Source: Boseongicola sp. (GTDB lineage: Bacteria > Pseudomonadota > Alphaproteobacteria > Rhodobacterales > Rhodobacteraceae). Taken from it: a DNA stretch of 43,880 nucleotides. The notes beneath the pieces were generated by a model. It saw only the letters and a list, made by a program, of their open reading frames with translations. It was not told the DNA's origin and ran no database searches. Position numbers and translations under genes: made by a program. Positions 25,844 to 29,378 of the stretch are shown in pieces. Position 1 is the stretch's first letter. Each line of letters begins with the position of its first letter. The stretch is from NCBI GenBank assembly GCA_029287375.1, contig JARFRG010000074.1, forward strand, positions 1-43,880, written 5' to 3'.

Positions 25844-25900
25844 TTGCAGCACAGGCACCTCCGGTCTACATCGATCCTACAGTTTTCAAGGAGCAGGAAA

Positions 25901-26929
25901 ATGCCCCACAACATCGCCATTCTGGGCGCCAGCGGATACACAGGCGCGGAACTCGTCCGGCTGATCGCCACACATCCGAGTTTTCGGATCAAAGCGCTCT
26001 CGGGGGACCGCAAAGCCGGGCAGCCCATGTCCTCTGTCTATCCGCATCTGCGCCACATGGACCTGCCGGATCTTTGCCGGATCGAAGACATCGACTTCTC
26101 TGACATTGATCTTGCGTTTTGTGCGCTGCCCCATGCGACCTCGCAAGCAGTGATCTCAAGCCTCCCGCGCGATTTGAAAATCGTCGACCTTTCCGCAGAT
26201 TTCCGCTTGCGCGATGCCGAGACCTATGAGAAATGGTATGGCAAGCCGCACGCAGCGCCAGAGTTGCAAAAAGAAGCGGTTTACGGTCTGACCGAGTTCT
26301 ACCGAGATGAGATTGCCTCGGCGCGCCTTGTCGCTGGCACGGGATGCAACGCGGCGACCGGACAATTTGCGCTGCGCCCGTAGATTGCTGCCGGTGTCAT
26401 TGATCTTGATGACATCATCATGGATCTCAAAGCCGCAAGCTCGGGCGCGGGTCGGTCATTGAAAGAACACCTGTTGGCATCCGAGATGTCCGAAAACGTG
26501 AAAGGGTATTCGGTCGGCGGGACGCATCGCCATCTTGGTGAATTTGATCAGGAGTTTTCGCTCTTGGCAGGTCGCGATGTCCGGGTACAACTTACCCCGC
26601 ATCTTATCCCGGCAACACGAGGTATTGTGTTGACCTGTTACCTGAAGGGTGATGCAGAATCTGCATATGAGACTTTGACACAAGCCTATGATAAAGAGCG
26701 CTTTATTCAAGTCTTACCATTTGGCGAAATTCCCCAGATGAAGGACGTGCGAGCGTCGAATTTCTGTCATATAGGCGTCGCCTCAGACCGTGTGCCGGGA
26801 CGTGTGACTGTTGTCGCGACGTTGGACAACCTGACCAAAGGCTCGTCGGGGCAAGCGATACAAAACGCGAATTTGATGCTGGGTGAAGCTGAGGCGACTG
26901 GTCTCATGGCGGCCCCTGTTTATCCATGA
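25901..26929 (+). pseudogene. argC: N-acetyl-gamma-glutamyl-phosphate reductase, interrupted by an in-frame amber codon
   Basis: ArgC makes N-acetylglutamate semialdehyde in arginine synthesis. The frame opens at ATG 25901 behind AAGGAG with the NAD(P) motif GASGYTGAE and keeps the catalytic C149 in [11 protein letters not shown]. Codon 161 is TAG (26381-26383) where a leucine is usual (ALRP-Leu-IAAG). Past it the same frame runs on with all expected blocks ([45 protein letters not shown]) to a TGA at 26929, for a total of 342 codons. There is no other damage, so this is a recent nonsense mutation, a suppressed codon or a base-call error (TTG or CTG to TAG). Loss should cause arginine auxotrophy unless another copy exists. 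Confidence 0.9.
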
Positions 26930-27021: not shown

Positions 27022-27465
27022 ATGAAGGGTCTAAAAAAGCAACGGCGCGTGCAGATAATCGTTTTGGCGTTCCTCGCAATGGTGGCGTCTTTTTCGGCAT
27101 TTTACATCGCGGCACCCGATGCGCTTCAGTTTTTTCGCGCACCTTCCGAAGTGGCCGAGACACCTCCGCCGCCAACAGAGATTTTCCGGATCGGTGGGCT
27201 TGTGGCCGAAGGAACTCTGGTGCGCGGGCAGGGTGAAACGATCACCTTTGCAATCACAGACGGAGGCGCGACCATCCCTGTTTCCTACACCGGCGTCTTA
27301 CCTGATTTGTTTGGCGAAGGTGAAGGCATGGTTGGAACCGGGCGCTATATCGACGGGGTGTTTCAGGCTTCTGAAATTCTTGCCCGCCATGACGAAACCT
27401 ACATGCCGTCCGAAGTTATTGATGCGTTAAAAGCGCAAGGTATCTACCAGGATCCGAACGGTTAG
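27022..27465 (+). CDS. ccmE: cytochrome c maturation protein CcmE (haem chaperone)
   Basis: CcmE carries haem covalently in the periplasm and passes it to the CcmF/CcmH ligation complex. The 147-residue protein has a basic N-terminus, a membrane anchor near residues 10-30, and a beta-barrel OB domain. The haem-binding histidine is H123 in ARHDETYMPSEV, with Y127 following. The start uses the purine-rich tail of the upstream repeat as ribosome binding site. ccmF and ccmH lie 2 kb downstream, with a lysis-like cassette between. Confidence 0.95.
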   Translation: MKGLKKQRRVQIIVLAFLAMVASFSAFYIAAPDALQFFRAPSEVAETPPPPTEIFRIGGLVAEGTLVRGQGETITFAITDGGATIPVSYTGVLPDLFGEGEGMVGTGRYIDGVFQASEILARHDETYMPSEVIDALKAQGIYQDPNG

Positions 27466-27535
27466 TTTCTGACCCGTTAAGCCTTTTCCCGGACCGTCTG
27501 GCGCAGATGCATCAGCCAGCGGGTCCGACAAAAAC

Positions 27536-28147
27536 ATGCCGACAATCACCTCAATTGCAGACGCAATACTGACCCGTGAAGGGGGGTATGTTGACGACCC
27601 TTCCGATCCTGGCGGTGCCACAAATTTCGGCATCACGATCCATACGATGCGGCGCCTTGGACTTGATCTGAACGATGACGGACGGATCAGCAACGATGAT
27701 GTAAAGGTGTTGGGTCGCGATCAGGCCCGCGGCATTTTTATCAATCACTACTTTACCGCGGCCCGCATTAACTGGTTGCCGGACCCGCTTCAGCCAAGTG
27801 TCTTTGACATGAACGTCAATGCCGGCGCTTTTTCAATCCGACTGTTGCAACGACTTGTCTCGCAAATGGGGTTTGCCGCGCACGATGATGGCAGGATCGG
27901 TCCCGTCACGCGCGAACGCGTGGCAGCCGCCTTTTCCGCCGCTCCGCATCATTTGGTTGACGCTTATGGGATCGCGCGGCGCAATTATTACTACCAACTT
28001 GCCGACCGCCGCGCCGCAAGCCGCAAGTATGCCCGGCGCCGCGATGGCGGCAAAGGTGGATGGATCGTGCGTGCCGAAGAATTCATCGCCCCACGCTATC
28101 ATCTTACCGACAACGAACATCGTGAAAGGGTCGCAAAATGGGGCTGA
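27536..28147 (+). CDS. GH108-type endolysin (GTA-like)
   Basis: A 203-residue peptidoglycan hydrolase of the glycoside hydrolase 108 family with a C-terminal peptidoglycan-binding-3 domain. The catalytic glutamate is E15 in TREGGYVDDP, followed by DPGGATNFGIT; the EF-hand-like DLNDDGRISNDD lies near residue 45. There is no signal peptide, as expected for a holin-dependent endolysin. In Rhodobacter capsulatus an endolysin/holin pair of this kind (rcc00555/rcc00556) releases the gene transfer agent and lies apart from the capsid cluster. Its end overlaps the holin gene by 10 bases. No capsid gene is in the window. Confidence 0.85.
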   Translation: MPTITSIADAILTREGGYVDDPSDPGGATNFGITIHTMRRLGLDLNDDGRISNDDVKVLGRDQARGIFINHYFTAARINWLPDPLQPSVFDMNVNAGAFSIRLLQRLVSQMGFAAHDDGRIGPVTRERVAAAFSAAPHHLVDAYGIARRNYYYQLADRRAASRKYARRRDGGKGGWIVRAEEFIAPRYHLTDNEHRERVAKWG

Positions 28148-28710
28148 TTGGACATGTCTTGAGTGTCATTTTTGGGGGTGGTCGCAATGTCGTGCGAGAC
28201 ACTGTCGAAGTTTTTCGTCCGAACGCCGAAGCAGATGCGCTGCGAGATGCCACGCGATATGGTGCGTCGCTCGCGCAGTTTGCGTCCGAGTTCGCCCGCC
28301 CCAATCGAGGACCGTTTGATCGCCTTGTCGACGGATTGAACCGGTTGCCGCGCCCGTTTCTGGCGCTTGGGACACTTGGGCTCTTCGTTGCGGCCATGGT
28401 TGACCCGATCTGGTTTTCTCAACGTATGCAAGGGGTTGCGCTGGTGCCCGAACCTTTATGGTGGTTGATGGGGGCCATCGTGTCATTCTATTTCGGTGCG
28501 CGTCACCAGACCAAGTCACAAGCGTTTCAAACCGACCTCGCGGCGACAATGGCGCGCGTCCCCGAGGTGGCGGCAAACATCGATAGGCTGGCACATCTTG
28601 CCAGGCCCAACGATGAAGACGCCCCTAACACAGCGGGGATGCCGTCGGCGGAAGATACGTCCGATCCCAACGCCGCTCTCGCAGAGTGGAGAGCGCAACA
28701 TGCCAAATAA
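28138..28710 (+). CDS. holin family protein (GTA holin, 3-TM type)
   Basis: A 190-residue protein resembling the 3-TM GTA holin family. Two clear membrane segments lie near residues 73-92 (FLALGTLGLFVAAMVDPIWF) and 104-120 (PLWWLMGAIVSFYFGAR), the N-terminus may hold a third, amphipathic one, and the C-terminal half is polar. It would form membrane holes that let the upstream endolysin reach the wall. The ATG lies within the last codons of the endolysin gene and its own stop lies within the next gene, so the set is translated as a unit. Confidence 0.8.
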   Translation: MGLIGHVLSVIFGGGRNVVRDTVEVFRPNAEADALRDATRYGASLAQFASEFARPNRGPFDRLVDGLNRLPRPFLALGTLGLFVAAMVDPIWFSQRMQGVALVPEPLWWLMGAIVSFYFGARHQTKSQAFQTDLAATMARVPEVAANIDRLAHLARPNDEDAPNTAGMPSAEDTSDPNAALAEWRAQHAK

Positions 28711-28879
28711 TCAGGTGTTCTCATTGGTGGCCGAACATGGCCCCTGGGTCGTGTTGGTGTTCTTTTTGCTGTGGCGGGACGTGCAAAAGGAACAAGCCAC
28801 CCGCGCGGTGCTTGATAAGAACGCGCATGTCCTGACTGAAATCGCGACGGTTATCCGGGAAAGGATGCCGCGGTCATGA
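28700..28879 (+). CDS. 59-residue BhlA/UviB-like small holin candidate
   Basis: This small protein has a short N-terminal helix, one membrane segment (HGPWVVLVFFLLWRDV, residues 13-28) and a charged amphipathic C-terminal helix. That layout, including the GPW/GPF-like lead into the segment, resembles BhlA/UviB holin-like proteins of phages and bacteriocin loci; the match is by pattern only. The ATG lies 10 bases inside the holin gene and the stop overlaps the next start in ATGA. It could be a second holin or an antiholin. Confidence 0.6.
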   Translation: MPNNQVFSLVAEHGPWVVLVFFLLWRDVQKEQATRAVLDKNAHVLTEIATVIRERMPRS

Positions 28880-29013
28880 ATGCAAAATTGAAAGCCGTTC
28901 GGTGCTGGCTGCGTTTTTGGTTTTTAGGGCGTGAACTCTCTGTGTCGATGACCAAAAACGAGACCGCACGGGCGAACCTTGATCGCGCCATTCGTGACAG
29001 TCTGCAAAGATGA
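28876..29013 (+). CDS. 45-residue small protein of unknown function
   Basis: A short frame from ATG 28876 that is linked on both sides by ATGA overlaps. It is basic and aromatic at the N-terminus (VRCWLRFWFLGREL) and then polar and helical, like a small membrane-surface or amphipathic peptide. No family was recognised. The double coupling in a row of overlapping genes is the main reason to consider it real. Confidence 0.5.
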   Translation: MNAKLKAVRCWLRFWFLGRELSVSMTKNETARANLDRAIRDSLQR

Positions 29014-29378
29014 ATGCTCTTGCGTCCGCAGTTCCACCCGATCCCACAGGTATCGTATTTTGCCTCTTGGCGGCCTGTGTCACCCTAATTTCACTCGCAC
29101 AGGTGGCACATGCGCGGCGGGTTTGGCCGCATGCCGCAAACCTTCGCGCGCTCGGTGGGCTATGCACGATTGGCTGGGGCCTTGCGGCGTGGCAGTTAAA
29201 TCTCAACGGGGCAGGTCATGATTTCGAAGGAATTCCCCTGACCGTTTCGTTGGCCCTGAGCGTTCTCGCCCTGCACCTCTTGGCCGGTCGCGGTACCTCA
29301 AACCCTGCTCCAGCCGAAAGCAGCGTTTTTCTGGGTGGGCTGTTGCTCTTGCCGCTCGGGGCGCATCTCCTGATCTGA
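29010..29378 (+). CDS. 122-residue integral membrane protein of unknown function
   Basis: Starting at ATG 29010 in an ATGA overlap, this protein has about four hydrophobic stretches (near residues 14-33, 45-62, 75-91 and 105-122) and ends inside the last one. Family not recognised. It is the last gene of the overlapping cassette; a 120-base gap precedes ccmF. It may be a further lysis or membrane-accessory component, an inference from position only. Confidence 0.6.
   Translation: MNALASAVPPDPTGIVFCLLAACVTLISLAQVAHARRVWPHAANLRALGGLCTIGWGLAAWQLNLNGAGHDFEGIPLTVSLALSVLALHLLAGRGTSNPAPAESSVFLGGLLLLPLGAHLLI

Follow-up and report, generated by a model that had tools for sequence, protein, structure and literature searches.

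In a widespread bacterial family, the release of gene transfer agent (GTA) particles determines the extent of DNA sharing and which of the cells die. In Rhodobacter capsulatus, the consulted parts of the literature describe this release as the work of an endolysin and a holin, a lysis pair whose first report is attributed to Hynes et al. 2012 in the available section of PMC3423380. The two genes (rcc00555 and rcc00556) lie in the order endolysin-holin, away from the capsid cluster; according to excerpts of PMC9638019, putative CtrA half-sites precede them, and CtrA with GafA is said to trigger them. LypABC is the lysis system of the related Caulobacter GTA, for which the portion of PMC13236601 consulted reports no holin-endolysin homologues and names other proteins instead. 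The PBSX module xhlA-xhlB-xlyA combines a holin and an endolysin with a small membrane protein; excerpts of PMC5589764 state that all three genes are required for PBSX vesicle release, which matches what had earlier been reported for lysis, and that deletion or induction of SPbeta blyA-bhlAB, which holds a BhlA, leaves vesicle release unaffected. BhlA-family proteins are small single-helix holins with a reported holin function (PMC9527704, in the part consulted). The literature searched, including the available parts of PMC3423380, PMC11409702, PMC13236601, PMC9638019, PMC6854486, PMC9527704 and PMC5589764, yielded no description of genes downstream of the GTA holin.

The locus presented here lies in a stretch of 43,880 nucleotides from Boseongicola sp., which we call the window. 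It resembles the R. capsulatus pair in its endolysin-holin order, in its presumed separation from the capsid cluster and in a putative CtrA half-site. Unlike that system, which is described as a pair only and whose own locus falls outside the loci examined here, it adds three overlapping genes, named p59, p45 and p122 after the lengths of their products:

27022..27465, + strand: ccmE, the upstream flank (start placed at ATG by choice); adjoins the endolysin in 97/110 loci
27476..27481, + strand: GTTAAG, an element resembling a CtrA half-site, 60 nt before the endolysin start; probable promoter region of a predicted operon
27536..28147, + strand: GH108 endolysin (holin-associated N-acetylmuramidase), 203 aa; matches NF040573, PF05838 and PF09374
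28138..28710, + strand: GTA-type holin, 190 aa; matches PF11351 (GTA_holin_3TM)
28700..28879, + strand: p59, 59 aa, putative BhlA-like second holin; based on a family profile, similarity to PF10960, pN/pS and hydropathy
28876..29013, + strand: p45, 45 aa, basic, with no predicted membrane helix; recurs in p59 loci, with pN/pS as evidence of selection
29010..29378, + strand: p122, a polytopic membrane protein of 122 aa and putative positional equivalent of p140 (see below); homologues in Boseongicola loci L032 and L033
29499..31478, + strand: ccmF, the downstream flank; adjoins downstream in 83/110 loci

All five frames that a previous sequence-only reading placed between ccmE and ccmF are present, and successive frames overlap by 4 to 11 bases (endolysin-holin 10, holin-p59 11, p59-p45 4, p45-p122 4). 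Their recurrence and codon conservation put them beyond chance. The identification of the first two as a GTA-type lysis pair is borne out by matches well above the family cut-offs: the endolysin to the NCBIfam equivalog NF040573 (E=4.4e-98, 326.9 bits, cut-off 240), in addition to Pfam PF05838 and PF09374, and the holin to PF11351, "Holin of 3TMs for gene-transfer release" (E=1.5e-28, 100.2 bits, cut-off 24.8). The PF11351 holin is directly downstream of the endolysin, as in an RcGTA-type pair.

The surroundings of the pair were read in 110 loci, namely the window, 80 loci chosen by endolysin similarity (the best 80 of 180) and 29 chosen by holin score. ccmE is adjacent in 97 of them, ccmF in 83 and both in 75; a contig end is nearby in 2 of the 13 loci lacking ccmE and in 4 of the 27 lacking ccmF. 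Thus, the place of the pair is common well beyond the window genome, and an insertion peculiar to that genome is ruled out. The earlier description of a cassette inserted between ccmE and ccmF was correct about the flanks and misleading about the insertion, since relatives carry the pair at the same place. What sets the window locus apart is the slot between the holin and ccmF.

Among the loci read, this slot is mostly empty, or it holds either p59 or an XhlA-like protein; as the loci were selected by endolysin similarity or holin score, these proportions are no census. The family-wide figures are the p59 and XhlA counts over 394 genomes, and the slots of the other 262 holin-positive genomes lie mostly outside the loci read. 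With neither protein, the gap between holin and ccmF is below 150 bp in 51 of 58 loci having ccmF (median 84), compared with 259-318 bp with an XhlA-like protein (6 loci) and 383-930 bp with p59 (19 loci). The XhlA-like slot proteins match XhlA (PF10779) in eight of eight cases (best E 3.6e-12). Their profile hits 31/394 genomes at E <= 1e-19, plus 13 weaker hits, and the hit is beside the holin in 23/23 genomes among the matches listed with holin coordinates (of the 31). No genome has both a strong p59 and a strong XhlA-like hit (42 and 31 genomes, respectively). By p-values that ignore relatedness, this exclusion is marginal (overall p = 0.06; 0.034 when restricted to holin-positive genomes). 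The hydrophobic helix is N-terminal in p59 and C-terminal in the XhlA-like proteins. Thus, the lysis slot has two alternative proteins, p59 or XhlA-like.

Minor variants were also seen. In L021 and L029, another short (53-59 aa) membrane-type protein occupies the slot after the holin. Away from the locus, the p59-bearing genome G042 gives a weaker XhlA-like hit; around this hit and those in G046, G078 and G121 (L216-L219), no endolysin, holin or ccm gene was recognised in the fetched stretch, and these may be prophages.

A profile built from 17 p59 proteins finds p59 in 42/394 family genomes at E <= 2e-11; one further, weak hit is off the locus and has an internal stop. In a class-wide draw of 289 genomes, p59 is present only in the window's own, and at least three others in that draw belong to the same family. 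Excluding the window, 41 p59 loci were fetched, and in 38 of them p59 directly follows the endolysin and holin. In the remaining three, the contig begins at p59 (L173 and L188) or the endolysin and holin are gone (L175, from genome G048). Of 48 distinct p59 copies with the holin in view, 47 overlap the holin stop, by 4, 8, 11 or 14 nt; the start-picking rule favours overlap and biases such counts somewhat, but the N-termini of the proteins align as well.

p59 is under purifying selection. Its pN/pS is 0.39 (1032 pairs), with mismatches at the three codon positions of 0.33/0.18/0.54. The corresponding values are 0.46 (48 pairs) and 0.32/0.27/0.55 for p45, and 0.46 (104 pairs) and 0.36/0.26/0.54 for p140, the third gene of most p59 loci. 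These ratios, from pairs at least 50% identical that are not independent, are rough, as parts of the genes overlap other genes and synonymous sites are near saturation. The excess of third-position mismatches over the first and second in all three genes agrees with the expectation that the small frames are conserved as frames. A further expectation, that the small frames accompany the pair in relatives, had a divided outcome: they are absent from most (39/331 holin-positive genomes have p59) and conserved in frame where present. The small genes are a real, conserved and lineage-restricted extension of the known lysis operon.

By hydropathy, p59 has a single N-terminal hydrophobic helix, marked by the sole peak that exceeds 1.6 (start at residues 6-7). 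Its C-terminal part is amphipathic, and the hydrophobic moment is greatest over residues 37-54. This is the BhlA-type layout of an N-terminal membrane helix followed by an amphipathic segment. Eleven of the 17 p59 members match BhlA (PF10960) at E <= 1, with a best E of 9.2e-4, aligned from the N-terminus. Window p59 itself scores E 0.064 and 13.7 bits, below the cut-off of 22.6, and so is not filed as a BhlA member. None of the 17 matches XhlA at E <= 1; p59 has no match in NCBIfam and weak ones in PHROG. The nearest known family of p59, as judged from these profile comparisons, is that of the single-helix BhlA holins. p59 shares with BhlA/UviB its size, its layout and a collinear model match. 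Unlike these proteins, it falls below the Pfam cut-off, has its own invariant GPW and RD..K residues, and lies behind a 3-TM holin in the GTA operon of a Gram-negative bacterium. With PBSX XhlA (PF10779) the likeness is one of gene company, whereas the p59 sequence is not XhlA-like and its helix is N-terminal. The suggestion of a second holin among the small genes thus gains from the resemblance of p59 to a small holin and from the XhlA-like partners at the same place elsewhere, and loses from the missed PF10960 cut-off and from the unaffected vesicle release reported for the BhlA-containing SPbeta set (PMC5589764).

Outside the family genomes, an IMG/VR viral contig (L223:2098-2283) encodes a p59 relative of 61 aa that shares 47% identity over 32 residues and whose neighbours on the contig were identified by none of the searches. 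tblastn of phage and of plasmid sequences, with one p59 protein in each, gave no match.

p59 rarely stands alone. Among the 41 fetched loci, 37 carry a detected p45 and 30 a detected p140. Over 62 loci with p59, in which some genomes were fetched twice and from which L001 and L002 (window copies) and L213-L219 (weak or off-locus hits) are left out, p45 is present in 58 and a third gene in 46; over the 51 distinct p59 sequences, the counts are 47 and 39. p140 overlaps p45 by 4 nt in 36/39 cases, under a start-picking rule that favours overlap. In L172, the order is p59-p140-p45 instead of p59-p45-p140. Among cultured relatives, Pacificibacter marinus (L041, L042 and L054) has p59-p45-p140 and Boseongicola aestuarii (L033) has p59-p45-p122. 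Between the window and Boseongicola relatives, p59 is 91-95% identical, p45 52-55% and p122 30-32%.

Window p45 has no match in Pfam, PHROG or NCBIfam. The idea that p45 is a duplicate of the p59 tail was rejected (hhalign probability under 1%). p140 is a five-helix membrane protein of 140 aa, modelled by AlphaFold2 at a mean pLDDT of 96.3, and carries a conserved Trp and His. It has no convincing Pfam or PHROG match, its model matches no viral structure under E 0.001, and no p140 was confirmed in viral contigs. Assignment of its fold from solved structures was rejected, the best Z of 7.6 (chain 7aqq_K) being at a level common for unmatched models. Judged by the libraries searched, p45 and p140 represent new families.

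The window's own third gene product, p122, has several hydrophobic stretches by hydropathy; its AlphaFold2-type model, made from three sequences, shows four helices and is not usable (mean pLDDT 57.7). p122 and p140 gave an hhalign E of 0.0028 in one comparison, at a probability of 4%. The p140 profile finds p140 in 8/120 genomes searched, all 8 of them p59-positive; the window's own genome is not among them, its p122 going unrecognised by this profile. p122 is thus too diverged for proof of homology to p140, and we treat it as a putative positional equivalent. A spanin, which had also been proposed among the small genes, finds no support here: p122 and p140 appear polytopic, p45 is without a predicted membrane helix, and no invariant lipobox cysteine is seen. 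The last point comes from reading the alignments rather than from a lipoprotein predictor: the invariant columns of p140 and of p122 hold no cysteine, and a lipobox-like LAAC in p122 (residues 20-23, within the first hydrophobic helix) is not kept in L032.

Across the 394 genomes, the sets compared were the holin (331 genomes), the GTA_TIM tail gene (346), p59 (42, or 43 less the weak hit) and XhlA-like proteins (31 strong hits of 44). Holin and GTA_TIM co-occur (odds ratio 11, p = 2.9e-12). GTA_TIM is an imperfect marker, as it matches more than once in many genomes and some of these matches may belong to prophages. The prediction that the small genes co-occur with a GTA gene holds to the extent that 41/42 genomes with p59 have GTA_TIM, and is uninformative within holin-positive genomes (38/39 with p59 vs 272/292 without, p = 0.49). 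p59 is missing from 305/346 GTA_TIM-bearing relatives and is therefore dispensable in general. The window genome, an assembly of 294 contigs that is 87% complete, has two GTA_TIM matches, the best at E 9e-39 as against the 1e-150 usual in relatives.

An endolysin-holin tree was built from the 143/158 loci that passed a length and score filter (132 rows after exact duplicates were removed). On it, the p59 label needs 6 changes vs 35.2 for shuffled labels, a difference that near-copies help, and thus p59 is inherited for long spans. The 47 empty, 4 XhlA-type and 23 ungrouped rows form one set (SH-aLRT 93), in an unrooted tree that fits gain and loss of p59 alike.

The stretch between ccmE and the endolysin carries a shared, putative control element. 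TTAA, which we take to be the CtrA half-site, is found in 90/115 such stretches vs 16.7 in base-shuffled ones, and GTTAA[CG] in 55/115 vs 2.9. Its frequency by slot type is 33/39 (p59), 32/43 (empty), 5/7 (XhlA) and 17/22 (other), with median positions 50.5 to 52.5 nt upstream of the endolysin across slot types, and there is no such excess before ccmF (8/99) or ccmE (14/119). In the window, the putative site is the GTTAAG at 27476, whose position is conserved and enriched in relatives. A sigma-70 promoter scan found 0 sites; terminator-like sites number 6 vs 3.6 in shuffles.

One genome, G048, has lost the pair and kept the small genes. p59, p45 and p140 are in frame between ccmE and ccmF, and the roughly 210 bp between ccmE and p59 contain no recognisable endolysin or holin. 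No GH108 or PF11351 match was obtained elsewhere in G048 either; both searches were silent in 14 control genomes and only PF11351 had a positive control (the window's genome), so the absence of GH108 is not fully shown. The genome is 99% complete and still carries GTA_TIM. Its GTTAAC overlaps the stop codon of ccmE itself and is thus no independent sign of a kept promoter. That p59-p45-p140 persist there is not what a pure holin-helper role predicts; G048 speaks against such a role, and for an activity of their own or for a recent loss of the pair.

Taken together, we consider it reasonably probable that the five genes form a single lysis operon for the release of GTA particles, with p59 and the holin as a two-component holin and p45 and p122/p140 as tuners. 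A CtrA-type promoter before the endolysin would drive all five genes, because the TTAA element is conserved and the gene order gapless; the same two features suggest co-transcription. The overlapping starts may couple the translation of each gene to that of the preceding one. The 3-TM GTA holin and p59 would act together to open the membrane, and the GH108 endolysin would then cut the peptidoglycan. p59 would fill the role of the XhlA-like protein found at the same place in other genera: given that protein in the slot and the requirement for xhlA in PBSX (PMC5589764, in the part consulted), a holin partner is the best guess, and p59 is most likely a second, XhlA-equivalent holin. p45 and p122/p140, which go with p59, probably tune lysis, judging by their position, and may set the timing or size of the lesion, e.g. 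as antiholin-type regulators.

Several other explanations were weighed. The small genes could instead delay lysis, with p59 and p45 binding the holin or each other, p140 as a membrane regulator and p59 not itself a pore former. Phages commonly have holin/antiholin pairs, the stoichiometry would be fixed by translational coupling to the holin, and p45 lacks a predicted membrane helix, as expected of a soluble partner. We regard this timing module as rather unlikely, however, since p59 resembles BhlA, with its reported holin function (PMC9527704, in part), since XhlA-like proteins, which promote PBSX release (PMC5589764, in part), take its place elsewhere, and since G048 retains p59 without a holin, which argues against a pure antiholin. 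The same genome, with its in-frame p59-p45-p140 and its GTA_TIM, gives rise to two related ideas. One, which we hold to be unlikely, is a self-standing GTA release module of a BhlA-like pore protein, a soluble partner and a five-helix family that would need no pair, other genera having an XhlA-type device instead. The other, a separate lysis or membrane-permeability module that could work without endolysin and holin and merely shares their locus, is distinctly unlikely: G048 is one genome of 42 and its loss may be recent, its GTTAAC is no separate evidence of a retained promoter, and the 38 other fetched loci whose sequence reaches upstream of p59 all have the module after the holin.

Nor do the flanking genes offer a convincing home. 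The small genes lie immediately upstream of ccmF, and p140, a membrane protein, has a conserved Trp and His, as might suit cytochrome c maturation, but the ccm genes mostly do without them (the short holin-ccmF gap in 51/58 loci lacking slot families). Moreover, the small genes keep to the holin side with overlaps while their distance to ccmF varies, no ccmF is in view after 5/41 fetched p59 loci, and elsewhere the slot holds XhlA-like lysis proteins; we consider a part in cytochrome c maturation very improbable. That the frames downstream of the holin are spurious or decaying, as their shortness and the poor conservation of p122 (about 30% identity in its own clade) might suggest, is hardly credible in view of the purifying selection on p59, p45 and p140, the codon-position test and the presence of p59 in 42 genera. 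Under the lysis operon that we favour, dozens of genera would add another holin plus two regulators, other genera would use an XhlA-type partner, and the lysis step would be modular. This suggests that GTA release can involve more components than the pair known from the model species.

Two minor observations concern the window sequence. An N-x-A-L-x-x-W motif recurs at the C-terminus of the holin (28670-28700) and of its relatives. Its E-W-R codons (GAGTGGAGA in the window) can act as the p59 ribosome-binding site; loci with an empty slot also have a similar holin peptide end. Upstream of ccmE, argC is seemingly split into two frames, 25844-26383 and 26420-26929 (25844-26929 overall), which points to a frameshift or an assembly error.
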